DNA from: Terriglobia bacterium
GTDB taxonomy: Bacteria; Acidobacteriota; Terriglobia; Terriglobales; Acidobacteriaceae
Direction of reading: 5' to 3'
NCBI GenBank assembly: GCA_020073215.1
Contig: JAIQFO010000021.1
Coordinates: forward strand, 1-64,000
DNA length: 64,000 bases
The position numbers and the translations under genes are program-made. Of the stretch, positions 6,173 through 30,671 are shown in pieces (the first letter of the stretch is position 1; every line of letters begins with the position of its first letter). The notes under the pieces were generated by a model. It did no database searches and was not told the DNA's origin. It was given only the letters and a program-made list of their open reading frames with translations.

Positions 6173-6208
6173 CCCCGTCCTGTCGCAAAGAACGCGACAA
6201 GGACGGGG
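6173..6208 (-). repeat. Palindromic interspersed element, copy 2 (inverted)
   Basis: Hairpin of 14 paired bases with one bulged A: CCCCGTCCTGTCGC (6173-6186), loop AAAGAAC, GCGACA-A-GGACGGGG (6194-6208). Read on the minus strand it aligns to copy 1 over about 50 bp including flanks. It may also act as a transcription terminator for the minus-strand gene ending at 6347. Confidence 0.65.
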
Positions 6209-6287
6209 CGCCCTTTGGGTTTTGAAAATGAGTTGCGGTAGGGTGGGCCACTCGCCTCGCGCAGGAACCAAAAAGGATATTCCTCCG

Positions 6288-6324
6288 CCCAGGTTAGCGC
6301 CCAAAGATCGGGCGCGAACCTGGG
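6288..6324 (-). terminator. Strong stem-loop just after the beta-propeller gene
   Basis: Fifteen-base arms CCCAGGTTAGCGCCC (6288-6302) and GGGCGCGAACCTGGG (6310-6324) with one mismatch and the 7-nt loop AAAGATC. It lies 23 bp past the minus-strand stop at 6347, so termination is likely; a T-run (CCTTTTTGG on the minus strand) appears only about 14 nt further on. It could instead be a third member of the palindrome family. Confidence 0.45.
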
Positions 6325-6346
6325 GCACCAGGCGCACAGCCATTCT

Positions 6347-7177
6347 CTAGAACGGAACTCTAAACGCAATGTTGTGCACGAACGCCAAGCCGGTATTCAG
6401 GATCGGTGTGGCCACACCTGTAGTGGTATCGACAGTGTAGACGCGCGAATGTGGCACATAATCGGCGACATAAAAAGTCCGGCGGCTATCAATGGCAAGG
6501 CCCATTACCCCCACCAGGCGGGCCGCCGGCGCGGTGTACAAGTCAACTATCTTCGTCGCCGTTCCGGTGGATGTGTCAATGCTGAACAATGTGCTTGCGC
6601 TGTTGACCCCGTACAGCTTCCCGTCGGGCGCAAAGGCCAGCGCCATGAGAAATCCCGAAGTACCCGAAGCATCTGAAGAATCCAGCACACCGGTGGACCC
6701 TATCCGGGTAGCCTGGCCCGTCCCGCGATCCACGGTGTACAGGCTGTTGAAATCCGGATTGCCAGTATCGAATTGTCCGATAGCGTAGAGAGTACCGTTG
6801 CGCGAGCAGGTCATGCCCATGATGTCCAACGTTTGGCCCGGCGGCAGCGGTGAGCCAACTACCGTGCCTGCCCCTGTGTTCAGATTGAGGGTGGCCAACT
6901 GCGCCTTGTTCGGGTCGAATGGGCTGGTTATCGTGTAAGGCACTAACCCCCCCGGCGGGCAAAATGCCAAGGAAAGCGCACCAGGTCCGATAGGGCCGAT
7001 GACCCTGACCGTCTGGGCTTTCAAGCTAAAGGCCGCCAGTTTGTTGTCGCCATTGTCGATGGCGTAGAGCGGTTTTGGTTGTGCGGCCGATCTCGCTGGG
7101 GTGAACACGACCAAAGGCAGCAACGTTAGGCCTGCGAAAACGGCAGCAACGATTCTTGGTCTCAATCCAGTTTCCAT
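6347..7177 (-). CDS. Secreted beta-propeller protein (DUF4394/SMP-30-like style)
   Basis: A 276-residue exported protein. A signal peptide (about 1-33; PRIVAAVFAGLTLLPLVVF, cleavage near ARSAAQ) is followed by repeated short strands of the YAID/LYTVD/LFSIDTSTGTA/VYTVDTTTGVA kind with GKLYGV and LAFAPDG motifs, typical of a six-bladed propeller. No catalytic residues are recognisable. ATG 7177 was chosen over an upstream in-frame start at 7258 because GGAGG sits 9 nt before it and the signal peptide then begins properly. Divergent from the winged-helix/TPR regulator at 7388. Confidence 0.75.
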   Translation of the reverse strand: METGLRPRIVAAVFAGLTLLPLVVFTPARSAAQPKPLYAIDNGDNKLAAFSLKAQTVRVIGPIGPGALSLAFCPPGGLVPYTITSPFDPNKAQLATLNLNTGAGTVVGSPLPPGQTLDIMGMTCSRNGTLYAIGQFDTGNPDFNSLYTVDRGTGQATRIGSTGVLDSSDASGTSGFLMALAFAPDGKLYGVNSASTLFSIDTSTGTATKIVDLYTAPAARLVGVMGLAIDSRRTFYVADYVPHSRVYTVDTTTGVATPILNTGLAFVHNIAFRVPF

Positions 7178-7264
7178 GACTCCACTCCTCCACTTAGTGT
7201 GTGTCTTCTCCGCTGTTCTGCGCCAGGGCCGCTGCAGCGTCAATGCACTGCGGATCACGGCAAG

Positions 7265-12629: not shown

Positions 12630-14552
12630 CTACGGAGTGGGAATCACAGCCTGCGTCTGGTTGGAATAGCCGCTTTCGATGCCATTTCCGTCGACGGCGG
12701 TGGCGACGTAGTAATAAGTCTGGCCCGCGACGACCTGGTTATCCGTGTAGTTGGTATTGGCATCCAGCGAGGTGTTGACCTGCACATACGGTCCGCCCGA
12801 AACGTTTCCGCGGTAGACGTTATAGCCCACCACTCCCTGCGAACCGCTGGGATTCCAGGATAGGCTGACACTGTGCTGCGGTGCGGAGACACCGTTGCCC
12901 GTGGCCGTCTGGTGGATCGGCGAGTTGGAAGCGTTGCTGACGAACGTCAAGGTTGCAGATGCACTGCCGCTTGCCTGGGGTTTAAACGTCACTTTGTAGG
13001 GCAGGCTCTGTCCGGCAGCCAGAACGGCGGGCAGAGAGAGCCCGCTGATCGTGAACTCTGGATTGCTGCTGCTCGCCGACGAAATGGTGACCGCTGCCCC
13101 GGTCGCACCCAGAGACGAATTGAGAGTGGAACTCACACCGAGCACGACGTCGCCAAAGCTCAGGATGGCGGGCGAAACTCCCAGTTGGCCGAGAGCTGTG
13201 CCGGTCCCGGATAGAGCGATGATGAGCGGTGAGTTGCCTGCGTTCGAGACGAGAGTCAGGTTAGTGGTAATGGAACCCGCGGTGCTCGGCGCAAAGGCTA
13301 CGTTGAAGGTCACGCTTTGTCCGGTCGACAAGGTCGTCGGCAGTGTCAGCCCGCTGATCGAATAGGCGGCATTGCCAACGCTGGCGGAGGAGATCGTGAC
13401 CGTGCTTCCACCGGTGTTCGTCACGGTTTCCGATAGCTTTCTACTGCTGCCGACCTGAACGTTCCCGAACGCAAGAGAAGTTGGATTGGGCGACAGATTG
13501 CCCGCCGTAACCCCGGTGCCAGACAGGGGGATGGTCAAAGGCGAATTGGCGGCGTTCGAGACCAGACTCAGATTACTGCTGGCGGAACCGGCAGCGCTCG
13601 GCGCGAACTTCACCGTAAACGTAATGCTCTGTCCCGCCGCCACATTGGCTGGTAAGGTCAGCCCGCTGATCGAATAGGCGGCATTGCCAGCACTGGCGGA
13701 GGAGATCGTGACCGTGCTTCCGCCGGTGTTCGTCACCGTCTCTGAGAGGCTCGCATGGCTGCCGACTTGAACGTTTCCGAACGCGAGAGAAGTTGGATTT
13801 GGCGACAGACCGCCCGCCGCAATGCCAGTGCCGGACAATGGGATCGTAAAGGGCGAATTGGCGGCGTTTGAGACCAGACTCAGATTACTGCTAGCGGAAC
13901 CGGCAGCGCTCGGCGCGAACTTCACCGTAAACGTGATGCTCTGTCCCGCCGCTACACTGGCCGGTAAGGTCAGCCCACTGATCGAATAGGCGGCATTGCC
14001 AACACTAGCGGAAGAGATCGTGACAGTGCTTCCGCCAGAATTCTTCACCGTCTCTGAGAGGCTCGTGTGGCCGCCGACCTGAACGCTCCCAAACGCGAGA
14101 GGAGTTAAGTTTGCCGACAGATTGCCCGACGTAACCCCAGTACCAGACAATGGGATCGTAAGAGGCGAATTGGCGGCGTCTGAGATCAGAGTCAGATTGC
14201 TGCTGGCGGAACCGGCAGCGCTCGGCGCGAACTTCACCGTAAACGTGATGTTCTGTCCCGCCGCTACGACGGCCGGTAAGGTCAGCCCGCTGATGGAATA
14301 GGCGGCATTGCCCAGGCTGGCGGAGGAGATCGTGACGGTACTTCCGCCGGTGTTCTTCACCGTCTCTGAGAGGCTCGCATGGCTGCCGACTTGCGCGTTG
14401 CCGAATGCCAGTGAGGTTGGACTTGATGCAACGGCGCCGCTGTTACCAGAGCTGGGATTCCCGGTAAGTCCCTGGCAGCCTGCGAAGAGCAGAGACAGCA
14501 GGACAACCGGTATGACTTTCGCCCCATCGCATTGACGCCCGACAATGGTCAC
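12630..14552 (-). CDS. Surface lipoprotein with five ASH (choice-of-anchor D) repeats and FN3 domain
   Basis: A 640-residue exported protein. A signal peptide ends in a lipobox-like LLFAGC, so lipid anchoring is likely. Residues about 40-555 hold five tandem immunoglobulin-like ASH repeats of 104 residues (SLAFGNVQVGSHASLSETV, TISSASVGNAAYSISGLTLP, FTVKFAPSAAGSASSNLSLV, SPLTIPLSGTG); four are near-identical and the fifth has diverged. A fibronectin type III domain closes the protein (VSLSWNPS, VVGYNVYRGNVSGGPY, VVAGQTYYYVATAVDGNG). The start is GTG at 14552; no in-frame ATG exists before the signal peptide. The protein shares its overall plan and C-terminal domain with the protein at 20697-21632. 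Adhesion or envelope scaffolding is a guess. Confidence 0.82.
   Translation of the reverse strand: MTIVGRQCDGAKVIPVVLLSLLFAGCQGLTGNPSSGNSGAVASSPTSLAFGNAQVGSHASLSETVKNTGGSTVTISSASLGNAAYSISGLTLPAVVAAGQNITFTVKFAPSAAGSASSNLTLISDAANSPLTIPLSGTGVTSGNLSANLTPLAFGSVQVGGHTSLSETVKNSGGSTVTISSASVGNAAYSISGLTLPASVAAGQSITFTVKFAPSAAGSASSNLSLVSNAANSPFTIPLSGTGIAAGGLSPNPTSLAFGNVQVGSHASLSETVTNTGGSTVTISSASAGNAAYSISGLTLPANVAAGQSITFTVKFAPSAAGSASSNLSLVSNAANSPLTIPLSGTGVTAGNLSPNPTSLAFGNVQVGSSRKLSETVTNTGGSTVTISSASVGNAAYSISGLTLPTTLSTGQSVTFNVAFAPSTAGSITTNLTLVSNAGNSPLIIALSGTGTALGQLGVSPAILSFGDVVLGVSSTLNSSLGATGAAVTISSASSSNPEFTISGLSLPAVLAAGQSLPYKVTFKPQASGSASATLTFVSNASNSPIHQTATGNGVSAPQHSVSLSWNPSGSQGVVGYNVYRGNVSGGPYVQVNTSLDANTNYTDNQVVAGQTYYYVATAVDGNGIESGYSNQTQAVIPTP
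12900..14440 (-). repeat. 312-bp tandem coding repeats
   Basis: Within the ASH lipoprotein the same sequence recurs every 312 bp: the string GCGCGAACTTCACCGTAAAC occurs near 13601, 13913 and 14225, with a related copy near 13289 and a diverged one near 12977. Near-identity at the DNA level indicates recent expansion or gene conversion. Boundaries are approximate. Confidence 0.8.
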
Positions 14553-15138
14553 TAATCCCAGACCTCAGCTCGATGTCTGCTCGTTCCCGGCGGAGAATGT
14601 GTCGCGCCGGAACGGCATTAAGCTTGACTGTCGGTCTGTATTCTAGGGGCGTTCCAAAAATGTTTCACATCTCGGAAGTGCATGCGGGGTAACGGAATCG
14701 GTTCAAGTGGCTCAGTGTTGCAAAACTCATCAGGCAGCGAATTTGGTAACCGACCCGTCTGCTGCACCGAGGCCGGCGCCTTAGGAAGCCCTACACTGGA
14801 TGTGGAATCGACTGATAATAAGCCACTTACTGGCTTCGTTTGGTAAGATTTGGACTTTGACCTGGCGCTTCGAGTCGCGCGTCTCAATTCCACTCTCGAT
14901 TTGAATACTCATCGCTAGACTGTGCGCAAAATCACTGACAGCCCGCTTTCCCCAATTGCAGACTCAGAGACTGTTTCATCCAAGCTGATTTCTGGAAGCT
15001 TCGGACTCCTGGCATGCGACCCAAAAGGGAGGCCCTATCGGAGCCGGTTTTGGAGAAACTACAGTAATCAAAATGAGGATGCCATCACGTCTCCCCTCAA
15101 GAGTTGGCCTGGAAAAGTGAGTGCGGCCGAGAGATCGT
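14553..15138. other. Long intergenic region between divergent genes
   Basis: About 585 bp upstream of both the ASH lipoprotein and the dikinase-like gene. Open frames of 91 codons (minus, 14618-14893) and 77 codons (plus, 14922-15155) have no ribosome sites or recognisable domains and I leave them out. I see no clear promoter boxes or strong palindrome; it presumably carries control elements for both flanking genes. Confidence 0.4.
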
Positions 15139-17835
15139 ATGCTCAGCCAGGATAACCCCGCCATGGAAGTCTTCACCGAAACGGAGATCCGCGACTTCAC
15201 GATTCGCGGCCACTACTTAAACCAGCGCAGCCTCCTGTCCAGGATAGATCTGCATTCTCGCAAGATAGAAAACATACCTCCAAACAGTCCAGGATCCTCC
15301 CCGCCTGTGGTCGAGTTTGAACTTCGCAATGGCCAAACCGGCAGCATCGTGGTCAGCGAAGTCGACATTCCTTCCCTATGCAACGATGATTTTGAAAAGG
15401 CGAAACGGCACCTCGGACAGATCTTGCGCGCGCGTCAGGGTGACCCCGAAGCTGCAACAAACCTTTCGTCGGAGATGCAAGCACAACGTTTGGGACTGGA
15501 GCTAATACAGCCCACAGAAAGCGATTTTGTCGTTCCTTCTACAAGCCGCGAGACTCATTCGGAAAAGGACATAAGCCAGAAGGCATTCGTACTCCTGAAA
15601 CTAAGTCGACTCGGTTATCCTGTGCCGGATTTCGTCGTCCTTACCGCTCGCGCCTATGCCGAGCGTGCCCAGCGCTTCGAGGAGCACCTCGCGAACGCTC
15701 TCAAGCAACTCGAAATCCTCACCCTGCAGAGGTTGAGCGACGGCCCGAGCCCCCTCGTCTTCGCGATTCGCTGCGCAACGGCTCACTACATCCCCGGAGT
15801 CATGGACACTTATCTCAACGTCGGCGTGGCCGAAAGCACGTTGCCCAGTTTGGAGAAGATGTATGGCTCGGTGGCCGCGCACAAGATGTTCCTGAACAAC
15901 CTCAGAAACCTGTGTGAGGCGCTCCACCATGACGAGCATGCTGGGTTGCTCAAGAGCGTCCGATCTGACCTGCCTCCGGATGAGGTCGATCGTTTAGTGG
16001 ACCAACTGTCGCAGATCATCAGGAGAACTGACCGAAGGCTGCTGGAGGATGCCTTTTTTCAGGCCACCTTTTTTGCAAAACAGGCCTACCGGCATTTTGA
16101 AGAGAACCTGGAACTCGTGCTCACGCTGTGCCGAGGCACCGATCATTATCCCAGCCTCATTTTGCAGAAAATGATTTGCACGGTTCGGCACGAAAATGCC
16201 TATGCCGGAGTCATCTCCAGCCGCCATACCCAAACCGGTTTGGGGATAGAACTGCAAACCGCTCATAACATTTTCGGCGAAGAGATGATGACGGGAACGG
16301 CCGAGATCGAGTCAACTCCTTTCGAGAATCGAGTGGCAATCAAGCGCGCGTTCCCTGCCGTTTATCATTTTGTTCCGCACCTGGGAGAACTGGAGAGGGA
16401 GTTCGAGGCCCCGGTCACCATCGAGTTCGCGGTCGAAGCTACCGAAAGGCATCAGTTGTTCGCGCTCCTGCAACTGAATCAGACGGGGATGGCGGGGCGT
16501 GCGGCCATCACCTCCGTTGTGGACATGCACAAGTCGGGGACCATATCACGGCAGCGCGTGACCGAACTCATCCGGCCTTACCACCTCAAGCAACTGACCA
16601 GCGACACCATCGACCAGGAGGATTTCAGTCTCCTCAGCAGATACTGTTCGGGGATCGCGGTTCTGCCCCGGTCGGCAGTGTCGGCGCGCGTTTACTTCAC
16701 GGGTGACGCCGCTCTGGGAGCCAAGAGCCAGGGGGAGGCCGTCTGTCTTTGTAAGAAGACCTTCTTGCCCACCGACACGGTGGTGATGCGCGAGATGGAT
16801 GCCGTCCTGAGTCTGGCCTCGGCTGCTGTACACGTCGTCACGATATGCCAGAGCCTGGGCATCCCGGCGCTCCTGAGCCTGGAGAAGAACGGCGTGACCT
16901 TGCAGCCTGGCGGGCGCCTGGTGAATTCCTCCGGAAGGGAAATCAAGGAGGGGGATTGGATCACGATCTCTTCGAGGCGAAGAACTCTTTACGAAGGGAA
17001 GGCGAGGTTCAAGCCTGCCCGGCTCCTGCGCTACATGAGGGGAGAGCCTGTCGAGATGGACGACGAGGAGGCGAAAGTATTCGCGTCGATCGCCTATGCC
17101 TACCGCTACTACCAGCAATTGACCCGAGGCCTCGAAGCCGATCAGATTTCCACCCTCAGCGAAGTCACCAGGCTGGTGAACTTCGAATTTCGCAGAGAAT
17201 CGAAAGAAGCCGGGCAACTGGTGAACAGCTGGTTCGACGAACGGGAAGTACTGTACACGGAAGAGGTTCTGAAAAGCGATATTGGCGACCATCTGGGTCA
17301 AAGCAATGTTTTTGAGATGCTTTCCCTGGACCGGAAGATCAGGTTCTTCAAACACGCTCTGGCCAAATGCTTCCGTGAACGTATCTCCGGCTATGAGGCA
17401 GGCGCCTTCATGCTGGGCAGGTTCTTATGCCTGCAATATCCCCTCGCTTTCTGGAAGTGCTTTACCCCGTCAGAGATTGGGCTGCTGGTCAATGAGTGGG
17501 TTCTCTTCGAAAAATATATGCAGGTCCTGCACAAAGTAGGCGAGAGGAAAATTCTGCTGGCGCGTAAACAGATTCTCAAGGGTGGGCTCGATCAGTTGTC
17601 GTTGCGCCCCAGCAACGTGCAACCGCTCATCACACTCAAACTCGCCGGCGTTGGCCTGGAGGAGGCGAAAGAATCCTTGCCCGAGTGGAGTGATCCCCAG
17701 TCCAAGAAAGTGCTCGAACTTCTCCAACAGCCATACCGCGTTTTTTACGATTTCAACGCGGCCTGGTCCGTCGGCCAGCTCGAAAAGATCTGTCGGGAGG
17801 AAGGCCTCCCCTTACCGGGTCCCGATGACTGTTAG
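15139..17835 (+). CDS. Pyruvate-phosphate-dikinase-like protein lacking the PEP barrel
   Basis: An 898-residue protein related to the N-terminal two thirds of PPDK. After a unique N-terminal 130 residues, it aligns to the ATP-grasp domain: LGYPVPDFVVLTARAY (family LGLPVPPGF), FAIRCAT (VSVRSGA), YIPGVMDTYLNVGV (SMPGMMDTVLNLG), then NAYAGVISSRHTQTG, ELQTAHNIFGEEMMTGTAEI and IEFAVEATERHQLFALLQLNQTG. The phosphohistidine domain follows (about 490-620), with the phospho-acceptor His at about residue 565 in AAVHVVTICQSLGIPAL. The C-terminal PEP/pyruvate TIM barrel is absent; instead there are about 260 mostly helical residues I do not recognise. It may therefore move phosphate from ATP to some other acceptor. 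ATG 15139 has GAGAG 5 nt upstream; GTG 15121 and ATG 15163 are alternatives. Its 3' end overlaps the convergent enolase fusion by 24 bp. Confidence 0.8.
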   Translation: MLSQDNPAMEVFTETEIRDFTIRGHYLNQRSLLSRIDLHSRKIENIPPNSPGSSPPVVEFELRNGQTGSIVVSEVDIPSLCNDDFEKAKRHLGQILRARQGDPEAATNLSSEMQAQRLGLELIQPTESDFVVPSTSRETHSEKDISQKAFVLLKLSRLGYPVPDFVVLTARAYAERAQRFEEHLANALKQLEILTLQRLSDGPSPLVFAIRCATAHYIPGVMDTYLNVGVAESTLPSLEKMYGSVAAHKMFLNNLRNLCEALHHDEHAGLLKSVRSDLPPDEVDRLVDQLSQIIRRTDRRLLEDAFFQATFFAKQAYRHFEENLELVLTLCRGTDHYPSLILQKMICTVRHENAYAGVISSRHTQTGLGIELQTAHNIFGEEMMTGTAEIESTPFENRVAIKRAFPAVYHFVPHLGELEREFEAPVTIEFAVEATERHQLFALLQLNQTGMAGRAAITSVVDMHKSGTISRQRVTELIRPYHLKQLTSDTIDQEDFSLLSRYCSGIAVLPRSAVSARVYFTGDAALGAKSQGEAVCLCKKTFLPTDTVVMREMDAVLSLASAAVHVVTICQSLGIPALLSLEKNGVTLQPGGRLVNSSGREIKEGDWITISSRRRTLYEGKARFKPARLLRYMRGEPVEMDDEEAKVFASIAYAYRYYQQLTRGLEADQISTLSEVTRLVNFEFRRESKEAGQLVNSWFDEREVLYTEEVLKSDIGDHLGQSNVFEMLSLDRKIRFFKHALAKCFRERISGYEAGAFMLGRFLCLQYPLAFWKCFTPSEIGLLVNEWVLFEKYMQVLHKVGERKILLARKQILKGGLDQLSLRPSNVQPLITLKLAGVGLEEAKESLPEWSDPQSKKVLELLQQPYRVFYDFNAAWSVGQLEKICREEGLPLPGPDDC

Positions 17836-20364
17836 AGTGTCCGGCACCGGTGCCTCAGCTTTCGCCTTCAAGCCATACAGATAATCGCGGTCAATGGTCG
17901 GCTCCATCTCCCGAAGCACCTCGGGAAGTTCCTTCCCATCCCGGGCGGCAATCAGACGCCCCAGCGCAAGTGACAGGGAAAGCACGGCGTTCATGCCAAG
18001 ATTTGCCTTTCTCTGCATGATCTGGATTTTCTCCTCCGCGGAACCGGTGGGGGAGATCTTTCCTCGTTTTGTTGCGAGATCCAATTCGAGCAGCAAGAGC
18101 TCGCGGTCGATGTCGCCGAGGGAGCCCAGCGCTGAAATTTTCTGTCCCAAAAATCGGGGAGCGACCACTTCGGTGACGTTGGCCACGGCGTTCAGGCACC
18201 CTTTGCCTCCGTAGCGCTTGGCCCTCATCCAGAGGTCGGCCAGCTCGCGATTTTCCTTGGTGATCGCGTCCGCCTTCACGTCGGAGATGAAGCGATAGGT
18301 TTTTTCTTTTTCCTTGAAGACAAAGTAATTCGGGAATTTCCGCGTGAGCGGGTTGGCCTCGATGATGCTGTCGACCAGGTGGATGGCTTCATCTGTCCCC
18401 GCCGAGGTGCCCAGAGGCGTGGCCGCGGAGAATTTCATTCCATTGTCGAGCATGACCACCACTCCCACCGTCGGGATGCCCGCGTTGGTCGGCTCCTCAT
18501 GAGCGGAGATGTCGGCGATGGTGACATCGGGGTCGAGTCTCCGGGTAATCTTTGTACCCTTCTTCGCCATTTCCATGAGCTCGACGATTCTCCCGTACTT
18601 GACCAGCCTCTCCGTGTTCGCGCCGCCTCCGCATTTCAGGCCGAGCGCGCCAACTGCGAAACTGATATCCGCTTCCATGACCTCGTTGGGAGACTTGGAC
18701 CGGTGAGAAACCACGAGGGCGAGCCCCATCTTCTTCGCCATGCGAGTTGCCAGCAGAGTCTCGCTCAGCGTGCCGATCTGGTTCGCCTTGATCAGGGCAG
18801 TATTGATGAGCCCTTGCTCGGCGCATCTTTGGATGGTGGAATCTTTGGTCGTAACCAGATCGTCCCCGATGATGAGGATTTCCTGGTCCAGAGCCTTCAT
18901 CAGTTTCTTCCAGCCTTCGTAATCATCTTCCGCGAAGGGGTCCTCCAGCGAGACGATGGGGTATTTCTTTACCCAACTGATGTACAGGTCGACCATTTCG
19001 TCCGTGGTCAGGACTTTCGGATCCTCCGCTCGCCAGAACAGGTACTGGCCCACCGACTCCTTCTCGCCGGTCTTCTCCCGGTAAGCATTGCTGAGCTCGC
19101 TGGCGGCGGGATCGAGCGCGATGCAAACATCCCGGTCGGGGACAAATCCGCATTCCTCGATGGCCTGGACGGCAACCCTGAGCGATCTCTCTTCCGGCAG
19201 CATGTCGCCTTTCTCTTTTGCGTAGGAAGCGACAATGCCCCCTTCGAGACCAATGCCCACGAAGTTGAGCCCCTCGGTGTCCTGGATGATCTGGATCGCC
19301 CTGCCTTGAAGCATGTTGGTGACCCGTTGGGCCTCAATATAGTCGGTGGCAGTGAGAGGCAGGAACATCAATTCCTGGAAGCTCAGATTGCCGCCCATCT
19401 CCTCGGTGTGACGACCTCCCATGATGGAGTTTCTGAACTCCCATGGGGCAAACACAATCTTTCCGTCCGGCAGTTCCAGTTCCTGGAGCCGGTGGAGCCG
19501 GAGCTTGCGCCGGAGTTCGGATAACTTAACCGGGCGCTCTTCTGTCGTCTCGCGAGCCGGTTCCGAGGCCCTGGCTTCCGCCGCTCTTGTAGCCGCTTCC
19601 CTCTGCCGTTCCTGGAAAGCTTTGTATTTCCCTGCGTCAGACAGCAGGAAGTCGAAGAGGGCAACCAGGCCAACGGTGAAAAGGAATCTTCCCGCGTAGA
19701 CGGCGGCCGGCGATGTAATGTACAGGCCAAGCAGGATCAAAACGATTCCGGGCAAGAACGTGATCTGACTGAGTACCTTGCTCGCTCTCGGGCCGGCCGC
19801 CGATACGGCCAGGTTCTGCGTCTTCACGGCCGGGTGGAAACTCCCTGACTCCTTGTGTACTCCGGGGAAGGCTCCGTATGGGATCTTCACGAACATCTCG
19901 AGGTACCAGAACCACCTGCCAACCATCCCTTCCCTCAGTTTTTGCTCAGCAGGGCCGCCAAGGTCCGGGCGCAGGTTGTTGGTCTTGACCGCCACCACGT
20001 AGTGCCCCATCTCGTGGATGGCGATGTTCGTATGCCATGCCACATACCACATCACGGATGAGATCACGACCTCAACACTAAGAAACATCTGCCGCATGAC
20101 GTCAAACCTCGACGCCACATGGAGAGGAATGCTTAACAATGAGGTCAGGAACGCGGCGTGGAACGAAACCAGCTTGTGGTTGGCGATGATCCAGCCACGA
20201 TCCAGGCGCGCGTTGTCTCCCGCCTGTGGGATCCATGCGAGAATCCGCTCCGGCAGTCTGCGAAACTGGCGAGCGACCCCTGCCAGGAGTTGTCTACGAC
20301 TAGCGGAATGTGGATGAGTGGAATGAATGACGGGGTCTCTGAACAGCCCGGAGTGATTCAGCAT
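17812..20364 (-). CDS. Membrane HExxH metalloprotease-like domain fused to a circularly permuted enolase
   Basis: An 850-residue fusion. Residues about 60-240 are hydrophobic helices with an M50/site-2-protease-like HEMGH (117-121) and NLAVSAAGP (184-192). A charged linker (245-295) leads to the enolase barrel domain (300-600) with all expected catalytic positions: H319 (GGRH), Q330/E331 (FQELM), E374 (GLEGG), D418 (ALDP), E474 (SLEDP), D501 (GDDL), K526 (LIKANQIGT), H554-R555-S556 and K577. The enolase capping domain, normally N-terminal, comes after it (620-815): IPTVGVVVMLDNG, the GTSAG loop (S654), GCLNAVANVTEVVAP and NLGMNAVLSLSLALG. So the domain order is reversed. Predicted activity is 2-phosphoglycerate to PEP at the membrane; proteolysis is uncertain. 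ATG 20364 has GGAG 8 nt upstream. Overlaps the convergent dikinase-like gene. Confidence 0.87.
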   Translation of the reverse strand: MLNHSGLFRDPVIHSTHPHSASRRQLLAGVARQFRRLPERILAWIPQAGDNARLDRGWIIANHKLVSFHAAFLTSLLSIPLHVASRFDVMRQMFLSVEVVISSVMWYVAWHTNIAIHEMGHYVVAVKTNNLRPDLGGPAEQKLREGMVGRWFWYLEMFVKIPYGAFPGVHKESGSFHPAVKTQNLAVSAAGPRASKVLSQITFLPGIVLILLGLYITSPAAVYAGRFLFTVGLVALFDFLLSDAGKYKAFQERQREAATRAAEARASEPARETTEERPVKLSELRRKLRLHRLQELELPDGKIVFAPWEFRNSIMGGRHTEEMGGNLSFQELMFLPLTATDYIEAQRVTNMLQGRAIQIIQDTEGLNFVGIGLEGGIVASYAKEKGDMLPEERSLRVAVQAIEECGFVPDRDVCIALDPAASELSNAYREKTGEKESVGQYLFWRAEDPKVLTTDEMVDLYISWVKKYPIVSLEDPFAEDDYEGWKKLMKALDQEILIIGDDLVTTKDSTIQRCAEQGLINTALIKANQIGTLSETLLATRMAKKMGLALVVSHRSKSPNEVMEADISFAVGALGLKCGGGANTERLVKYGRIVELMEMAKKGTKITRRLDPDVTIADISAHEEPTNAGIPTVGVVVMLDNGMKFSAATPLGTSAGTDEAIHLVDSIIEANPLTRKFPNYFVFKEKEKTYRFISDVKADAITKENRELADLWMRAKRYGGKGCLNAVANVTEVVAPRFLGQKISALGSLGDIDRELLLLELDLATKRGKISPTGSAEEKIQIMQRKANLGMNAVLSLSLALGRLIAARDGKELPEVLREMEPTIDRDYLYGLKAKAEAPVPDTLTVIGTR

Positions 20365-20696: not shown

Positions 20697-21632
20697 TTAC
20701 GGACTTGGGATTATGGCCTTCGTTTCATTCGAGTAGCCGCTTTGCTTACCCGTTCCATCGACGGCGGTGGTGACGTAGTAGTACGTGGTTCCTGCCACCA
20801 CCGTGTAATCGGTGTAGGTAGTGGAAGCCTCGAGCGCGGTATTGATTTTCTGGTAAGGGCCGCCATGCGTTTTGCCGCGGTAGATATTAAATCCGACCAC
20901 ACTTGGGTCGCTCTCCTGCCACGTAAGGTCGGCGCTATGGGCAGCGGGTGCCACGCCAGTACCGGTCAACTGTTCCACCACGGGTGAGACGACCGCGTTG
21001 CTGAAGTATCCCGCCTTGCCGGAACCTGTACCAGACTGTTTGGGAGTAAACCGGATTCTGGCCGGGATGCTGTGTCCCGACAAGATGGTCACCGGTAGGG
21101 TCACCCCATGGATAGAGAACTCGGAACTGGTGACCTGGTCGGATGAGATCGTGACGTTTCCGTTGGAGGCAGTGAGGGTCGTGCTAAGAGTCGCGCTTTG
21201 TCCGACGGTGACGTTGCCGAAATTGAGTTTCGCGGGAGACACGGTCAACCCCGGGCTGCCGGTTCCTTGCACCGAAATGGAAAGACTGCTGTTCAGGGCA
21301 GTGCTGACCAGCGTGAACTTGCCGGTGACTTGTCCAACCGCCGTGGGTTTGAACCAGATGGGCAAATGGACGGACGCGCCGGGCTTGAGCGTGACCGGCA
21401 ATGGGAAATAGCCGTACTTAAATTCGCCGCTTCCCTGCTTGGACTTGGTAAGGATTTTCAGGTACTTCGTGCCGGTGTTGCTGAGTAGGATCGTGAAGGA
21501 ACTGGAACTGCCAACTTCAACCTTGCCGAAAGTGTGACTGCAGGGATTGCACTGCAGTTGCTCGGCCCAGGCACGGGCGGGCATCAGGAAAGATAGCGAT
21601 AGCACGAATGCGAGTAGGGGGAAGTATCGCAT
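20697..21632 (-). CDS. Secreted protein with two ASH repeats and FN3 domain
   Basis: A 311-residue exported protein. A cleaved signal peptide (about 1-23, LAFVLSLSFLMPARAWA) precedes two ASH/choice-of-anchor-D immunoglobulin-like domains (CSHTFGKVEVGSSSSFTILLSN; LNFGNVTVGQSATLSTTLTA) and a fibronectin type III domain (VVGFNIYRGKTHGGPYQ, VVAGTTYYYVTTAVDGTGKQSGYS). It shares the architecture and C-terminal domain of the lipoprotein at 12630-14552 but has no lipobox. AGGG lies 3 nt before ATG 21632. It sits between the enolase fusion and the exosortase, on the same strand as both. Confidence 0.8.
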   Translation of the reverse strand: MRYFPLLAFVLSLSFLMPARAWAEQLQCNPCSHTFGKVEVGSSSSFTILLSNTGTKYLKILTKSKQGSGEFKYGYFPLPVTLKPGASVHLPIWFKPTAVGQVTGKFTLVSTALNSSLSISVQGTGSPGLTVSPAKLNFGNVTVGQSATLSTTLTASNGNVTISSDQVTSSEFSIHGVTLPVTILSGHSIPARIRFTPKQSGTGSGKAGYFSNAVVSPVVEQLTGTGVAPAAHSADLTWQESDPSVVGFNIYRGKTHGGPYQKINTALEASTTYTDYTVVAGTTYYYVTTAVDGTGKQSGYSNETKAIIPSP

Positions 21633-21704: not shown

Positions 21705-22580
21705 TCAACGGCCAGATGGCGCATCCTCACTTCGTTGCAAAATCCAGACCAACCCGATCACGATCACGAATGCAATCGCAAGAAACACGATCCCGCCATG
21801 ATGATGGAGGTTCCCTTCCAGGAACTCTGGATCGACCCGCGTTCCGAGTTCCGCGATGACAAAAATACGGAGGCCGTTCTTGGCGACCGCCAGCGGAATC
21901 GCCGCCGCGATGAGTACGGCTTTCCGCCCCCAAGAGCGCAGGAAAAGATGCGCCAGAACCATGGTCGTCACGATCAGCACGAAGCTGGATCGGATGCTGC
22001 TGCACTCGCGCGCAACTTCGATATCCAGGTTCGGGATCGACAACAGGATTCCATCCTGCGTCACCGGCACCCCCACCGCCCGAAACAGGATTCGCGCCGT
22101 CAACGCGGATTTGTACTGCAAGATTTCGACAATCCAGTTCAAAGCAGACGTGGGGATGGGAACCAGCAAGAACAGAAAGCAAAAAGGAAATAGAAACGAC
22201 TGAAAAGTACTTGTTCCAAAACACAGTACGACGCTGGCGATCCACCAGACCACGAGCGCGAGCATCCCGAGTGTCAGCCGGATATCGTCATGCGCCGCGA
22301 CCATCCCCCATCTCGCATAACCACCCGTCAGCAGCGCCAGAGCCAGCAACGCCCCACCAAGGCGACGGCTCGACTGCGGATCGATGCGGAGCGCTTTCGA
22401 GTCCGGGTCTTTCGAATCCAGGTAAATGAGCGCCGCACTCAGCGGGAGAATCAGAAGAATATGCGTGTAGGCATCGTTGGTCAGCGCCAGCCTGAACGTG
22501 CCGGCCAGCGGGTGTAACCAGAACGCGATCGACAGAGCACCCAGGAAGGCGAAGGGCAAAAATTGAGTTCGTGTCGTCAT
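21705..22580 (-). CDS. Exosortase (EpsH/Xrt family)
   Basis: A 291-residue polytopic membrane cysteine transpeptidase/protease that sorts PEP-CTERM-type proteins. About eight hydrophobic helices are visible, with the catalytic triad of the family: Cys in VARECSSIRSS, Arg in AKNGLRIF, His in GNLHHHGGIVF. Exosortases are found with exopolysaccharide loci, which fits the 28 kb of polysaccharide genes upstream on the same strand. No protein in this window has an obvious PEP-CTERM tail, so its substrates must be elsewhere. Subfamily not assigned. Confidence 0.9.
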   Translation of the reverse strand: MTTRTQFLPFAFLGALSIAFWLHPLAGTFRLALTNDAYTHILLILPLSAALIYLDSKDPDSKALRIDPQSSRRLGGALLALALLTGGYARWGMVAAHDDIRLTLGMLALVVWWIASVVLCFGTSTFQSFLFPFCFLFLLVPIPTSALNWIVEILQYKSALTARILFRAVGVPVTQDGILLSIPNLDIEVARECSSIRSSFVLIVTTMVLAHLFLRSWGRKAVLIAAAIPLAVAKNGLRIFVIAELGTRVDPEFLEGNLHHHGGIVFLAIAFVIVIGLVWILQRSEDAPSGR

Positions 22581-22842
22581 GTCACGCTTTGAGTGATGGG
22601 ATTCAAGTTTCCATTGTTACCGAGACCACGTTAACACCCTCTCCTCTTGCCCGCCCGGCGCCTCAAGAAGGTCAGCGTATCACTTCTGATATGGTCTGTA
22701 GATAGAAGTTCAAGTACAGTTTGCACACAGCCAACCGCTAACTACTGCCTGCGAATTCAGGAACGCATGGGATGAGCAAGCGGATGCGTGGAAGGTCGAA
22801 GACGCGTATCACCATTCCGAAAATCTTAGCAGGGAGGCTAAA

Positions 22843-23913
22843 GTGGCATTCGGGTTGACTCGCAAGAGGATTTTTTCCGCCCTGACGATCGCTGTGTTCG
22901 TATTGGGAGCCTTCACCTTCGGCTTTGTTTCGAGCCTGCATTTGAAGAGTGCTGTCTCCGGTGATCTCCGCAAACATCTGCTGCCAGCCGGAGACGCACC
23001 GCTCCCGGTGCGGGCGGGGGTGCTGGCTGCGTTGAGGGACTTTCAGGAGGGATACGTCAAGCGAGACCCCAAAGAATTGGATGCTTTCATGAATCGTCTC
23101 TTTTCGAAGAACGACGATATCCTAGTTCTGGGGACCAACGCCGGCGAGTGGGCTCGCGGCTATCCTGCGGTGGGTGAGTTCATCAGGAGGGACTGGCTGA
23201 ATTGGGGGGATTTCAGGTTCGCCGTCGACGATTCCATCGTCTGGTCGTCAGGAGACGTCGCCTGGATGGCGAGTATCGGAGCATTACACAAAAACGGGTC
23301 GGATCGCCCCCTGCGCTTGTCGGCGATACTAACGCGCCATGGCAATCGTTGGCTTTTCCGCCAACTACAATTTCAATGGGAACACCGTAATCCCAGCCCG
23401 GCGGATCTCCTTCGTCCAAGCACGGATCTCGAACTCGTCAAATGGGTGTTGCAGCTTACTCGCCACATGGCGCAAAGTGCCGGCAAGATACTTCAGCTTG
23501 CGAGCATGCGGACACCATCCGATCCTTCAGCCTCTATCCTGAGGACCACGTCGAGTCGCCAGACTCAACTTTCCCGGTGTCTGATTTTCGAGCGTGGAAT
23601 CAGACGACGACAGGATAGGTTTAAGCTTCTCAACCAAAGCCCGTACATTGGGTTCCTCAAACATCGAGATGTGGCCACCGGGGACGTCATGAATCTCCAA
23701 TCCGCCGCCCGCAAAAGCCTCCCAGCCCAAAGTCGGATTCCGGCGAGTGCCCACCGTCTCCTCGACGTCCGCAGCCCGCATCAACGTGATCTTCCCTGGA
23801 TAGAACTGGATGGTGTAGCGCTCCAAAGCTCGTTTGTGAGCTTCCTCCACTTGAAAATAGTGAAGGCTGGCTGGCAGGCTCCGCCCCAGCATACGGTAAC
23901 AAGAGCATCCTAG
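22843..23913 (+). CDS. SnoaL-like/NTF2-fold protein with membrane anchor, C-terminus antisense to PKS
   Basis: The start is GTG 22843 with AGGGAGG 5 nt upstream. An N-terminal transmembrane helix (about 10-30, FSALTIAVFVLGAFTFGFVSS) is followed by a SnoaL/DUF4440-like NTF2-fold domain (about 58-190; LRDFQEGYVKRDPKELDAFM, ILVLGTNAGEWARGYPAVGEF, DVAWMASIGAL, RLSAILTRHGNRWLFRQLQF). The frame then continues about 130 codons antisense to the 3' end of the PKS gene (overlap 23527-23913). The PKS side carries real thioesterase sequence there, so this tail is probably non-functional read-through after loss of the original stop. The role of the NTF2-fold domain (polar cyclisation, ligand binding) is unknown. 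Confidence 0.65.
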   Translation: MAFGLTRKRIFSALTIAVFVLGAFTFGFVSSLHLKSAVSGDLRKHLLPAGDAPLPVRAGVLAALRDFQEGYVKRDPKELDAFMNRLFSKNDDILVLGTNAGEWARGYPAVGEFIRRDWLNWGDFRFAVDDSIVWSSGDVAWMASIGALHKNGSDRPLRLSAILTRHGNRWLFRQLQFQWEHRNPSPADLLRPSTDLELVKWVLQLTRHMAQSAGKILQLASMRTPSDPSASILRTTSSRQTQLSRCLIFERGIRRRQDRFKLLNQSPYIGFLKHRDVATGDVMNLQSAARKSLPAQSRIPASAHRLLDVRSPHQRDLPWIELDGVALQSSFVSFLHLKIVKAGWQAPPQHTVTRAS

Positions 23914-26900
23914 AGCTTGAGCGCTACGATGCAGGAGAAATCTCCAGTATTCACTCTTTACCACGGCCCTTTGCACCAGATAGGCCGCACCCTGTTTTCG
24001 AACATTCTGCCAGTGGCGAGATATTTGCTCTTTAGCGGCCACGCGATGGTCGCATCCTGGAACAGCGGTGTCGAACAATATGAGTAACCCAGGCTCCTTA
24101 CCCTGTGCGTTGAGCTGTTGACACATCTCCAGAGCGATGAGTCCTCCCAGCGACGCACCTCCCAACAGATAGGGCCCTTCCGGGAAAGACGCTTGAAGTT
24201 CTTTGACGTAGATGGATGCCAGTTCTTCAATCGTTGGCTCCTGAATCTGGGCCTGAGATTCGAGCGGGGATTGCAGCGCGTAAAAGGGTTGGTCGGGACC
24301 AAGGTATGTCGCCAACCGTCGATAGAAAAGCAGACTCGGCCCGAGAGCGTGAACACAAAAAATGGGAATCCGAGAACCAGTTGGGTGAATTGGCACCAGA
24401 GCGGACCAGGTCTTTGCCTCCGCAGTGGCGGCTGGTTTCGACGGAGGGGGCACACCCGCAGGCTGGCGGATAGCGTGTGCTTCCAAATGGGCGGCAAGAT
24501 TGAGGTCGACTTGATGCGCCTCCTGCACACGATCAAGGCAGGCGCGCAGTTTCTCCGACAGCATTCGGACGTTGGGTTCGCTCAGCATGTCCAGGTGGGT
24601 GCCTAGGACATCCTGCACTTCGATTCCTTCTGCCGCCATTCCTCCCCAACCCAGCAGTTCGTCGTCTCCGTCGACTGCGCTTCGGCTTACCGACCGGAAG
24701 ATGGTGAGATGCCCCGGAAAGACCGTGGGGCGATACACCGACGCCGCGATCCGATTCACCGTCTTCAGGTCAGGAATGTCCGGAGCCGACAAGAGGTGAA
24801 GTTTGTACATCCGTTGGTACCACTTCCTGGTGAGGACGGAAACCGCCCGGTTGGTTGCCTCCTTCGGCCCGTGTCCCGAAAGGAAGATGCGTTGGAACCG
24901 GAGTTTGTACGCCGCAAAGCGTTGGCGGAGATCGGCTTTCTTCTTAAACTGCTCCAGATACTGCCATTCAATCGTGTCCAGCAAGCCGAGCAGCGACACG
25001 GTTTCTCCGGCGGCATGAAGTTGCTGTGCCATTTCGAACACGACGAAGCCGCCAAAAGAATATCCAGCCAGACAGTACGGCCCGTGCGGCTGCACCTCGC
25101 GAACTCCGCGGAGATAGTAAGCCGCCATATCCTCCACTCGCGTGAGAAAAGGCTCCCGGCCATCCATGCCCTGCGGCTGAAGAGCAAACACGGGTTGATC
25201 CTCTCCCAGGTAACGGGTCACTCCGTCGAAAGCGATTACGTGTCCGCCAACACCGGAAACCACGAAGAGCGGCAAGCGCGACCCTTCGCGGCGAACCGCA
25301 ACCACGGCGGAGGGCGGTGTCACTTCTGAAACGCTGGAGGTTTCCGCTTTTCGGATCAGCGCCGCTAATTGGCGAATGGTGCGCGCCTCAAACAGGGTGG
25401 AGAGGCTTAAGTCCTGCTGATAGGTCTTCTTGATCTTGCTGAACATGCGAACGGCAATCAGCGAATGGCCGCCTAAGTCGAAGAAATCGTCGTCCAGACC
25501 AACCGTCTCCACTCCCAACAGTTCCTGCCACCATTCCGCCAATACACTTTCCACCCCGCTCTCCGGTTTCGCCGTACTGGATGGCGGAGATGCCTTGGCT
25601 AACGGACTTGCCGGTTTGGCCGGGAGGAGATCACCACGAACCACGATGATGCCAGGGGGCATATCGGAAGAGAGAATCTGATGCAATGCCTTGATCCCGT
25701 CCGCCGATGACATGCCCTGATTCTCAAGCATCTCCGCTGACTCGTTGTAAGCTGCGGCCGTCCGCGGCTGGCGTGCAGGCGCAGAATTGTCGGACGTGGC
25801 CGCCATGCGCCGTAAGGCAAATTCGTTAATTTCCGCGAGTACCTGGCCATCGCCGTCGAGGAGAGTGAAACTGAAAGTCGCGATTTCGCGTTGTGTTGTA
25901 TTCTCCTGACGACCACGGATGTGACTGTAAAACCGCGCGGGCAGCGGGCGGTAAAGCGTAATCTCCTTGTAAGACAGCGGCAGATAGAGGAACTCGGACT
26001 CTTCGTAGCCCTGTATGAGATAGAGGGCCGACCCTGTAGCCAGATCAAGCAGGGCCGGATGCACCGGCCACATCTCGATGTCCGCCGAAAAGTCTGCGCC
26101 GAGTTTCAACTCGGCCAGTGCCTCGCGCTCTCCGAGGTGCAGGCTCTGAAGATTTCGCCAGCGCGGGCCGAAGTCGAAATAGCGCTCCTGGCGGGTTCGG
26201 TGCTGCTCGTCAAAATCAATGCGGCGAGTGGAACACCGCTCGCGGATGACCGCGACATTTTGATCGGCAGGAATGCGCTTCTGGTTGCGCGCAATCTGTC
26301 CGGATGCGTATTCGGTCCATTCTCGATCTTTCGCCAGGATCGAGAACCGGAAGCCGGAGGCTTGGTGGCGCAGACGGACTCGCACCTCCTTGGTTTCATC
26401 GGGAGCGACGGTAAGAGGCGCCAGGAAGAATACATCCTCAAAGGCAATGCCCGGGTCGAACCTGCCATTGACCAGCGCCGCCGCCGCCAGTTGCAGGTAC
26501 CCCGTGCCCGGAATCAGAGCGGCGCCGTTCTTGAAACGGTGCTCGCTGAGCAACCAGTCTTTCTCGCAGCTCAACCGGGCTGAATAGATCGTCTCGTTCG
26601 AGGTCCGCACAAGCCGCCTGCCCAGGATGGAAGGACTGCCGGCAATGTCCCGTCCCGCCATGCCCACGTCAGCCCACAACCCCCAATTCACAGCCGTGAC
26701 CGGTTGTCCGGCTTGGCTGAGGGCGAACGCGTCCAGAAAGGCGTTTGCCGCCGCATAGTCGACCTGTCCGGCGGGAGGTGCGAGAGAGCTGATCGACGAG
26801 AACAGGAGCAAGAAGTCGAGCTTGCTGTCCCCGAGCGCCTGCTGCAAAGCCAGCGTGCCTTGAATTTTCGGCGCCAGCACGCGAGCCGCGCTCTCGCGAG

Positions 26901-29900
26901 TCTTGATCTGCAGCGGGCCATCTTCGATCAAGCCGGCGGCATGGATCACGCCATGAATGTCGCCGAAACGTTGCCCCGCAATGCGCAGTGCTTCCGCGAT
27001 CTGCCCGGAGTCGGTCACATCGGCCGAAAGAGTCAGAACCTCCGCGCCCAGCGACTCGATCTCGCGCAGTTTTGCGATAGTCTGACACGCGCCGTTCGCA
27101 CCCTTCGGTTGGCTCAAAAGCGCTTGCCATTCCGACGCCGGTGGAAGCGGCGTGCGTCCCACCAGCACCAGCCGCGCATGAACGGTTCGCGCCAAGTGTT
27201 CGGCGACGACCAGCCCGATCCCTCCCAGCCCGCCAACAATCAGGTAGACTCCTTTTTCTCTCAAACGCGTGCCGGAGACTTGCGTACGAAGACTGGTGGA
27301 CTCGAAGGTTTCCACCCAACGTTCAGACTTCCGGTAAGCGACGCAGGAGTCCGCGCCGCGCAGAGAACATTCCGCGATGATGTCGCCAGCCGCTCTTTTC
27401 AGATCTGGAATGTTTCGGTCAAGGTCGATACTGCGACAGAATGCGCCGGGAAACTCTTTTGGGATAACCCGGACGGGCCCCTGCAGTGCCGCCCGGGTGG
27501 GTTCGACGACGCTCTCTCCTGACACCGATTGCAGTCCGTTGGAGACGCACGCCATCTCCACCGCTCCGAGATCCTGATCGCCCCAGGCTTGCGCGAGGAA
27601 CAGAAGGCTATAGAAGGTCGAGTCCAACGTTTGCTCGAGAGAGCGGCCGGCGGTTGGGCCCGTGACCGGCCACAGGTGGAGAATTCTGCTTGGCGGATGT
27701 TCGCGCTTGACTATGTCCTTCAGCAGTTCGTCGTAGTCGTCTCGCACGCCGGGGCGAATTGCGTACGAACCGGCCCGCTTGCGCTTGTACTGGTCACCCA
27801 CGAGTACTTCCAACACCTCGTGGCCAGCGGCCTTGAGTTGCTTTGCAATCTCCGAGCCCAGTCCTGTCTCATCGAGAAACAGCAGCCAGCATGCGCGATC
27901 TGCAAGGGCTGGCTTCTCGGCTGGAGACTTCTTCCAAACGCGCCGATGGAACCACTGCTCACTCTGGGGCACTTCAGCACGGGGAGCAGCCTCGGCTGGC
28001 TTGCTGGCTAGAGGTTTGGCTCCAGCCTCGATCCAGTAGCGCTGCCGTTCAAACGGGTACGTTGGGAGAGGGACCCGGTGCGGCTCTTCTCCGGCGTGGA
28101 GAGCATTCCAATCAATCGACAGACCCGCGATCCAGAGTTGTCCGGTAGTGTTGAGCAAAAACGCCGCATCAGAGACCTGTTCCTGCGGGTGCCGCATGGA
28201 AGATAGGACCTTGGAGCTTTTCGGCTTGCCAGGGTGCTGGCGGGTTAACGATGTGAGCGCTTGGCCGGGACCAACTTCCAGAAACACCCGCGCCGGATCG
28301 CGGAACAATTCGACGAGCCCCTCCGAGAAACGCACACTGTTTCGCAGGTGCTTTGTCCAATAGCCTGGATCCGTAGCTTCGGCGGCGGTAATCCACGTGC
28401 CGGTGACATTCGAGATGTAGGGAATCTTGGGCGCGTGCAAAGAAATTGTGGCGAGATGAGCGCGGAAGGACTCGAGCATCGGGTCCATCATCGCGGAATG
28501 AAATGCATGCGACGTGTGCAGCAGGCGGCAAGGAACGGCTTGTTTCTCGAGCTCCAGCGCGAATTTCTGAATGGCATCGGTGGGGCCTGATACCACGCAC
28601 TGCTCGGGCCCGTTGATGGCAGCGAGTGCCAGGTCGGCTGGAAGCGAGAGCGTGCCGGCGGCCGCGGCCACCGACAGCATCGAACCGGATGGCATCTCTC
28701 CCATCAAACGGCCGCGAATGGCGCTCATGTGCAGCCCGTCTTCCACCGAAAACACGCCCGCCAGACAAGCCGCCGCGTACTCTCCGATGCTGTGGCCGAT
28801 CATGGCGGAAGGCGCGATGCCGTGCGCGATCCACCATTGCGCCAGCGCATATTCGATGCTGAACAACGCGGGCTGCGTGAAGGCGGTGTGGGATAGCTTC
28901 TCCGCCGCCGCTGCCGCGTCTTCTTCCTGCGGATACAACAAAGTTCGCAGGTCGAGACCGAGATCGGGGATCAGACGTTCGGCGCACTGGTCGAGCTGAG
29001 CGCGGAATACCGCCTCCGTCTCGTACAATTCGCGGCCCATGTTCACGTACTGCGATCCCTGCCCGGAAAACATGAAGACCGCGCCGGGAGCGCTCGCGGC
29101 CGCTTGTCCGGTGAAGACCCGGCTGGGCACAGGCTTAACCAGCAGTGTGCCCGCTTCTTCCGTGGTGGCAGCCACCACCGTGCGACGGTGCGCCAACGGC
29201 TCTCGGCCTGACTGGCAGGTGTAGGCGACATCTTGCAACGGCAACTCTGGGTGCGCCTGCAAGTGGGCGGTCAGATTCTGGCTGGCTTTTTCCAACGCGG
29301 AAGCGGTCTTCGCCGAGAGCACGAGCAACTGATAAGGCTTCTTCGCGTCTGCGTGTGCTGCAACCGGCGGCGCTTCCTCTAGAATCACGTGCGCATTGGT
29401 GCCGCCGATGCCGAGCGCGGTCACGCCCGCGCGCCTCAGCCCACGCTCTACTTTCCATTCCTTCAAACTGGTATTGACGTAAAACGGGCTGTTCTCGAAA
29501 TCAATCAGCGGATTCGGTTTGCGGAAGTGCAGGCTCGGGGGGATTTGCCGATGCCGCAATGCCAGCACGGTTTTTATCAGGCCGCCAACGCCCGCCGCCG
29601 TGTCCAGGTGGCCGATGTTGGACTTCAGCGACCCAATGGCACAATAGCCCTTGCCCTCGGTGCTCTCGCGAAACGCTCGCGTCAGCGCCTTGACTTCAAT
29701 CGGATCTCCGACCTTCGTTCCCGTGCCATGCGTCTCCACATAGGAGATATCGCTTGCCGCCACGCCTGCCATGCCCAGAGCCTCGGCGATGACCTCGGAC
29801 TGTCCTTCAACGCTCGGCGCCAGATACCCGACTTTTCGTGCGCCGTCGTTGTTGATCGCCGATCCGAGAATGACGGCATGAATGATATCGTGATCGGCCA

Positions 29901-30666: not shown

Positions 30667-30671
30667 GTTCG

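Follow-up and report, generated by a model that had tools for sequence, protein, structure and literature searches.

We report here a circularly permuted enolase, fused to an M50-like membrane domain, which is encoded in the window studied, that is, the whole stretch of 64,000 nucleotides at positions 1 to 64,000 of contig JAIQFO010000021.1 (Terriglobia bacterium, assembly GCA_020073215.1, Acidobacteriota). In the window protein the membrane domain comes first, the TIM barrel second and the capping domain last, which is the reverse of the usual enolase order. The same build recurs at 67 loci, most of them with a PPDK-derived partner protein fused to it or encoded nearby, and it may represent a membrane-anchored enolase that acts together with this partner. 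The parts of the gene, in coordinates of the window, are the following:

17812-20364, minus strand: permuted-enolase gene, 850 amino acids plus stop, from the listing of open reading frames (ORFs)
19600-20217, minus strand: M50-like membrane domain, residues about 50-255, from a weak Pfam match, model helices and hydropathy
20002-20016, minus strand: HEMGH, residues 117-121, a metalloprotease-type HExxH motif
18571-19446, minus strand: enolase TIM barrel, residues 307-598, from Pfam Enolase_C and Foldseek
17902-18519, minus strand: enolase capping domain 3′ of the barrel, residues 616-821, from Pfam Enolase_N and hhalign

The Pfam profile Enolase_C covers residues 307-598 (E 6.6e-57, 193.5 bits) and Enolase_N follows it at residues 616-756 (E 3.2e-14, 53.7 bits, for a cut-off of 35). 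With hhalign, the C-terminal segment, taken as a profile of 7 sequences, aligns to canonical enolase N-terminal domains, taken as a profile of 14 sequences, at a probability of 99.2 and an E-value of 1.6e-19; the alignment spans 135 columns, and the capping domain holds an inner insertion of about 50 residues. Residues 616-821 are conserved across alignment A1. Given the Pfam order and this profile match, residues 616-821 are the enolase capping domain, set behind the barrel. An earlier note, made from the sequence alone, had proposed a circular permutation for this gene; its ORF, coordinates and strand are correct, the permutation is borne out by the domain order and the profile alignment, and the case it had named against itself, a C-terminal segment that is not the capping fold, did not occur. 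As a whole, the window protein scores 242.1 bits with the NCBIfam eno equivalog model, under the 300-bit cut-off.

Within the genus of the window, 4 of 24 genomes carry the permuted enolase, its own genome included, and the three others show 86-89% identity, one of them matching only from residue 50 on. In a sample of the phylum it is carried by 9 of 396 genomes, again including its own (cap-region query, E <= 1e-12). A collection of species genomes (84,980 species by its own description) was then scanned with the cap alignment, by two peptide patterns only, and 91 stretches matched, from which 67 loci were confirmed, some of them being records already present in the genus and phylum samples; since the scan was limited to these two patterns, the family is probably larger. 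The barrel precedes the cap in one ORF at all 67 loci, which is the outcome of the search for homologues of the same domain order that had been proposed in the earlier note. Twelve bacterial phylum labels are represented in the tree (Acidobacteriota, Planctomycetota, Elusimicrobiota, Myxococcota, Caldifarciminota, Stahliibacteriota, Thermodesulfobacteriota, Omnitrophota, Spirochaetota, Chloroflexota, Krumholzibacteriota and Pseudomonadota), along with Aminicenantes and rows without a printed phylum, and a single archaeal bin (Sifarchaeota) has the gene on a 7-kb contig that could be stray. All 67 records are titled as metagenome-assembled genomes, two of them at chromosome level (CP070664.1 and CP070750.1).

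A quick maximum-likelihood tree of the barrels was computed from the window protein, 64 of the 67 loci (three were dropped, their barrel match being too short) and 29 canonical barrels, which are those of 32 scanned loci that passed a motif filter and come mostly from Acidobacteriota. A single branch parts the permuted from the canonical barrels with an SH-aLRT value of 100; its length is close to 4.4 changes per column, which the midpoint root divides into 1.97 and 2.41. One origin of the permutation is the simplest reading of this tree and not a proof, given the long end branches, for which the program issued a warning, the placing of the root by midpoint only, and the mostly acidobacterial canonical sample.

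Some family members are of unusual build. At locus L094 (positions 3617-7211) the permuted-enolase gene is split into two overlapping frames, probably by a sequencing frameshift. In an Omnitrophica bin (L102, G498:C98:1-30340) the entire 30.3-kb contig is one frame of 10,113 amino acids, open at both ends, which includes the M50-like domain and the permuted enolase, with a HATPase_c domain found by Pfam within the first 4,282 amino acids; giant ORFs in Omnitrophota have been published, in passages that do not mention enolase (PMC10066038). Another Omnitrophota protein, of at least 2,290 amino acids (L076:7061-13930), carries the permuted enolase and, at its cut end, a weak match to glucose-6-phosphate isomerase (20.1 bits, for a cut-off of 20.7). 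Finally, an Elusimicrobia protein of 3,122 amino acids with a signal-like start (L113:4382-13747) combines the M50-like domain and the permuted enolase with a triosephosphate isomerase domain, the latter covering only positions 68-244 of the Pfam model, in an ORF that crosses a run of X.

The active site was mapped by motif in an alignment of 68 rows (the window protein and the 67 loci) with the host's canonical enolase as reference, using the numbering and residue roles of yeast enolase. The window protein has the equivalents of H159, Q167, E168, E211, D246, E295, D320, K345, H373, R374, S375, K396 and S39, and conservation in the family is near-universal: none of the rows covering H159, Q167, E168, E211, D246, D320, K345, H373, R374, S375 or K396 (65-68 of 68) has lost the residue, while E295 is present in 66 of 67 rows and S39 in 67 of 68. 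The claim of the earlier note that the catalytic positions are kept can thus be extended from the window protein to its relatives, and these residues suggest that the enolase site is probably catalytic. The ratio of nonsynonymous to synonymous substitution (dN/dS), obtained by a Nei-Gojobori count between the window gene and five relatives, with several dS values close to saturation, is lowest in the barrel at about 0.04-0.07 (dN 0.03-0.09, dS 0.67-1.31), followed by the capping domain at about 0.05-0.12 and the membrane domain at 0.07-0.16. Values are higher, about 0.16-0.5 where dS could be computed, in the linker 256-300 and in the first 49 residues. An AlphaFold2 model of the protein, built with 55 sequences, has a mean pLDDT of 85.4 and a pTM of 0.83. 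The 50 Foldseek matches shown for the PDB are without exception enolases, and 35 of them give about 300 columns at 2.2-3.5 Å; the remaining ones have a higher root-mean-square deviation, in some cases above 15 Å where the alignment extends into other parts. A sequential structure aligner cannot cover both halves of a permuted protein together.

A separate canonical eno, over the curated cut-off, is present elsewhere in the genome of the window, as was found by the survey that the earlier note had suggested, and also in 59 of the 67 genomes of the relatives (43/50 and 16/17). A canonical fragment of 291 bits was found in one genome (G474), and 7 of the 67 genomes show none, which could be explained by their being incomplete. 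Since most of these genomes have a canonical eno, the permuted form is usually an additional enolase, and the idea that it replaces the housekeeping enzyme is not supported. In four of the six WOR-3/Stahlbacteria loci (L072, L073, L075 and L082) the permuted gene is followed, after about 50-100 bases and in the same orientation, by the canonical eno.

Ahead of the enolase, Pfam Peptidase_M50 matches residues 114-209 of the window protein (E 5e-4), and the same profile is found at E <= 0.1 in 18 of 23 family members scanned, the best at 1.7e-6. The earlier note had taken the first 240 residues as membrane; there is indeed a membrane domain in this region, but its conserved part runs from about 50 to 255 and the first 49 residues are poorly conserved. 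The HExGH motif stands ahead of the barrel in 61 of the 67 ORFs, the other six being either cut at the 5′ side of the contig (five) or frameshifted (L094), and the membrane domain was detected in the same ORF in 63 of 67, the other four being three ORFs cut in the same way and again L094. In the membrane alignment A3, made of the window protein and 54 of the 61 relatives having both parts, H117, E118, G120, H121, N184, G191, P192 and D243 are invariant; D243 (55/55 rows) and D238 (54/55) are candidates for the third metal ligand, and no LDG-type motif was seen in this alignment. The model places helices at 56-78, 97-127, 185-216 and 219-242, and hydropathy peaks lie near 66-81, 96-109 and 202-236, the last stretch being able to hold two helices. 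Hydropathy, the model and motif conservation agree in setting HExxH in a predicted membrane helix, and the Lys/Arg-rich C-side weakly suggests that the enolase part is inside the cell.

The breadth of this family does not appear in the earlier note, and neither does its main recurrent partner, which in the window is the convergent neighbour of the permuted-enolase gene:

15121-17835, plus strand: PPDK-derived partner gene, 904 amino acids from GTG, from Pfam, NCBIfam and relatives
15541-16485, plus strand: PPDK-type ATP-grasp domain, about residues 141-455, from NCBIfam PPDK and invariant residues
16636-16995, plus strand: phosphohistidine (swivel) domain, with H571 at 16831-16833, from the invariant H571 and Foldseek
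17041-17832, plus strand: all-helical C-terminal region in place of the phosphoenolpyruvate (PEP)/pyruvate barrel of PPDK, from the model and Pfam
17812-17835, no strand: 24-base overlap of the 3′ ends of the convergent partner and permuted-enolase genes, from the coordinates

Several relatives of the partner match from residue 15 only, and the true start may be there. The NCBIfam PPDK model matches the partner at 109 bits, for an equivalog cut-off of 843, through model positions 18-514 of 865, and the Pfam matches, to PPDK_N and the PEP-utilizers mobile domain, are both under their cut-offs. In alignment A4 (the window partner and 33 relatives, 34 rows, most of them trimmed to the ATP-grasp/phosphohistidine part) K154, R217, E435, Q451 and H571 are invariant. 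With both the ATP-grasp and a phosphohistidine domain bearing its catalytic histidine in place, the partner probably can move phosphate from ATP onto histidine. In two fused relatives Pfam likewise detects PPDK_N and the PEP-utilizers domain, and neither there nor in the window partner does it match a PEP/pyruvate barrel. A search with the A4 profile matched solved PPDK chains across the first 516 to 544 residues, an extent that adds no separate support for the loss of the barrel, because most rows were trimmed to that part. The model of the partner (pLDDT 83.6, pTM 0.75) has the helical C-terminus at the position of the PPDK barrel, and Foldseek ranks PPDK first, with the PPDK phosphoryl-carrier domain 2fm4 at a TM-score of 0.81 by target length. 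For the helical region of the fused form no relative was found among solved structures, and a profile comparison gave no relation between it and the helical C-terminus of the window partner (probability 0.2). In a Spirochaetes partner of 1,552 amino acids (L105:5402-10057) the PPDK-type region matches twice, perhaps by tandem duplication.

The partner is fused to the permuted enolase or encoded nearby at 52 of the 67 loci, as 31 fusions, 16 convergent genes and 5 co-directional neighbours. Among the convergent cases, the contig of L060 breaks off after only 181 residues of the partner and L068 is about 2 kb distant, and among the fusions L077, L085, L092 and L094 show the helical region only before the end of the contig. 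At L091, which holds the same gene pair as L045, the parts are separate genes 20 bases apart, and at L081 they form one protein of 2,158 amino acids. Partner and permuted enolase occur together in 4 of the 24 genomes of the genus, and neither is seen in the other 20, while 10 of the 396 genomes of the phylum sample have a partner-type match of at least 509 bits, set off by a gap down to 346 bits, the level of ordinary PPDK; nine of these ten are the nine with a permuted enolase. We also looked for the partner in 14 genomes chosen for loci that were unusual or had no partner close by, and in three of them none was found at E <= 1e-20.

Taking these observations together, we give about an even chance to a membrane-anchored catalytic enolase that acts with a phosphotransferase partner and an M50-type site. 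One old circular permutation would have moved the capping domain behind the barrel, and the barrel end thereby freed would have been joined to the M50-like membrane domain, yielding a specialised second enolase held at the membrane, probably at its inner face. Its active site would probably interconvert 2-phosphoglycerate and PEP, or a close analogue, the direction of the reaction being inferred like its substrate. The PPDK-derived partner, having lost the PEP/pyruvate barrel, would probably take the phosphate of ATP onto its histidine, so that the two proteins could act as one unit of phosphoryl transfer anchored in the membrane. Given the conserved M50-type metal site, turnover or occupancy of the enolase may be coupled to the cutting or changing of a membrane protein. 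Both roles offered in the earlier note, a membrane source of PEP and a sensor tied to proteolysis, may still hold.

Several observations weigh against this reading. The HExxH membrane domain described in the earlier note is supported as M50-like, but in the window protein the M50 match reaches 19.9 bits, under the Pfam cut-off of 27.2; 5 of the 23 members scanned have no M50 match, and a profile of the membrane domain searched against solved structures found no match, its three hits, at E 0.21-0.22, being to a thioredoxin-like protein. In the enolase part, R14 is replaced by A in 65 of 68 rows and E20 by G in 63 of 68, both residues being presumably linked to the dimer interface of enolase, and the residue preceding E211 is L in 55/55 aligned rows and D in the host's canonical enolase. 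As for the partner, the glycine-rich motif around H571 is degenerate in the clade of the window, 15 of the 67 loci have no partner (four of them, L076, L087, L100 and L102, run off the contig), matches in the WOR-3/Stahlbacteria genomes did not rise above those of ordinary PPDK (285-314 bits), and one genome (L123, G219:C119), in which no permuted enolase was found, has a split-form partner of 1,190 amino acids.

A possible, though clearly less probable, explanation is that the permuted enolase senses a ligand on behalf of an intramembrane protease, with the binding of 2-phosphoglycerate or PEP switching the M50 site on or off and catalysis being incidental; a nucleotide-binding CBS domain is thought to switch some M50 proteases similarly. 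The invariance of HExGH in 55/55 aligned rows would fit a sensor well, as would the membrane domain being part of every 5′-complete ORF (the frameshifted L094 has it in the upstream frame) and the canonical eno that most of these genomes already have. However, the general acid, the general base and the metal ligands are kept, beyond the phosphate site alone, the strongest purifying selection falls on the barrel, and the PPDK-derived partner is left unexplained by sensing alone.

Rather unlikely, and a little more so than a sensor, is a different substrate, whereby the partner would phosphorylate a hydroxy acid and the enolase would dehydrate the resulting 2-phospho-3-hydroxy acid at the membrane. 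Against it, the equivalents of the enolase phosphate and metal ligands are kept, and no pathway genes recur next to the pair across clades, even though the leucine that stands before the catalytic E211 in all 55 rows (a D in the canonical enolase of the host), the patchy distribution and coexistence with the canonical eno, and a partner without a PEP barrel, as in the small-molecule dikinase HpeHI as it is described in PMC12167813, all point in its direction. We hold as doubtful, below the preceding two, a composite enzyme in which the enolase barrel replaces the PEP barrel of PPDK, the phosphohistidine domain of the partner docks on it and shuttles phosphate between ATP and the acid bound by the enolase, and the M50 site couples this cycle to the cutting or gating of a membrane protein; if true, this would be a composite membrane machine for which we found no described counterpart, present under a dozen phylum labels. 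That the protein is an inactive membrane protein with the enolase fold as a scaffold appears very improbable, given that the catalytic residues are near-universal across a divergent clade and dN/dS is low, and this despite the presence of a canonical eno and the loss of R14 and E20. An artefact of assembly or annotation joining pieces of a normal eno, which the earlier note had named as a possible refutation, is scarcely credible even though all 67 records are metagenome-assembled, given that one order recurs at 67 loci from different species genomes including two chromosome-level records, that most of these genomes have a separate canonical eno and that one divergent side of the tree is made up of the permuted barrels alone; the 67 recurrences in one order together with the low dN/dS speak against both chance and a joining error.

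Each domain recognised in this putative membrane-anchored enolase system belongs to a known superfamily, and the three-part assembly is without a counterpart found in the open-access literature. The likeness to enolase (PF00113/PF03952, TIGR01060) lies in the TIM barrel and capping domain, recognised by profile, and in the kept catalytic positions; the cap behind the barrel, the membrane fusion, the score under the eno equivalog cut-off and the loss of the R14 and E20 positions set it apart. The membrane domain resembles M50 (site-2 protease) in its HExGH within a predicted membrane helix, its AGP motif and a conserved Asp near the last helix, but the NPxPxxxLDG motif, which is typical of M50, was not seen in it, and an enolase is attached. 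Similarly, the partner is like PPDK in its ATP-grasp and phosphohistidine domains with the invariant K154, R217, E435, Q451 and H571, and unlike it in its helical regions, in that no PEP/pyruvate barrel was found and in falling far under the PPDK equivalog cut-off. The closest parallels to the partner are kinases with PPDK- or RPH-related ATP-grasp and histidine domains that serve in regulation or act on small molecules: HpeHI is described as a two-component dikinase that phosphorylates small aromatic compounds (PMC12167813), and the PPDK-derived VadK as a regulatory kinase (PMC13400623). Both differ from the system of the window by description, in that the excerpted accounts mention neither an enolase nor a membrane protease (PMC13400623, PMC12167813). 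Among the Foldseek matches of the partner, the structure of HpeI (9goj) is a weak one; the comparison with VadK and HpeHI is otherwise one of published descriptions. In the open-access papers searched we found no description of a permuted enolase, of an enolase with an M50 or site-2 protease, or of an enolase with PPDK, and a permuted enolase is not described in the excerpts of PMC1570152, PMC2876114, PMC2575518, PMC4686048, PMC9207746 and PMC5837055.

Enolase ranks with the best conserved enzymes of central metabolism, and its two domains are known in one fixed order; a branch with swapped order and kept catalytic residues provides a natural test of whether that order matters for folding and activity. 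The constant fusion to an intramembrane metalloprotease motif that looks intact, together with a PPDK relative apparently unable to bind PEP in the usual way, points to an undescribed link, in many uncultured bacteria, of lower glycolysis with histidine phosphorylation and processes at the membrane. It should also be noted that automatic annotation could mistake such genes for plain enolase or PPDK and assign them to the wrong pathway.

The neighbourhood of the gene pair was compared by clustering the neighbours in 72 sequences (the 67 loci, four more loci and the window). Besides the enolase and the partner, the only larger cluster is that of ABC-transporter ATPases, named from sequence (9/72), which we take as generic, and apart from it more than 5 of the 72 never share a gene across clades; the WOR-3/Stahlbacteria loci have some local neighbours in common, in 5 of 72 or fewer. 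A phage or plasmid origin was considered and rejected, since the viral contigs gave 91 pattern-matched stretches with none confirmed and no match was found in plasmids or phages, and so was an anti-phage defence role, as three proteins matched no PADLOC model. Upstream of the permuted-enolase gene, on the same strand (21708-32609 of the window), lie an exosortase gene, a gene for a polyketide synthase of 2,382 amino acids and an AMP-binding/carrier-protein gene. None of the printed neighbour clusters with three or more loci contains the exosortase gene, relatives of the AMP-binding gene lie near three other loci, and the rest of this upstream context is not shared. Finally, two proteins with Ig-like repeats of the ASH/HYDIN type (12633-14552 and 20700-21632), both secreted-looking by their first residues, are encoded on either side of the gene pair.

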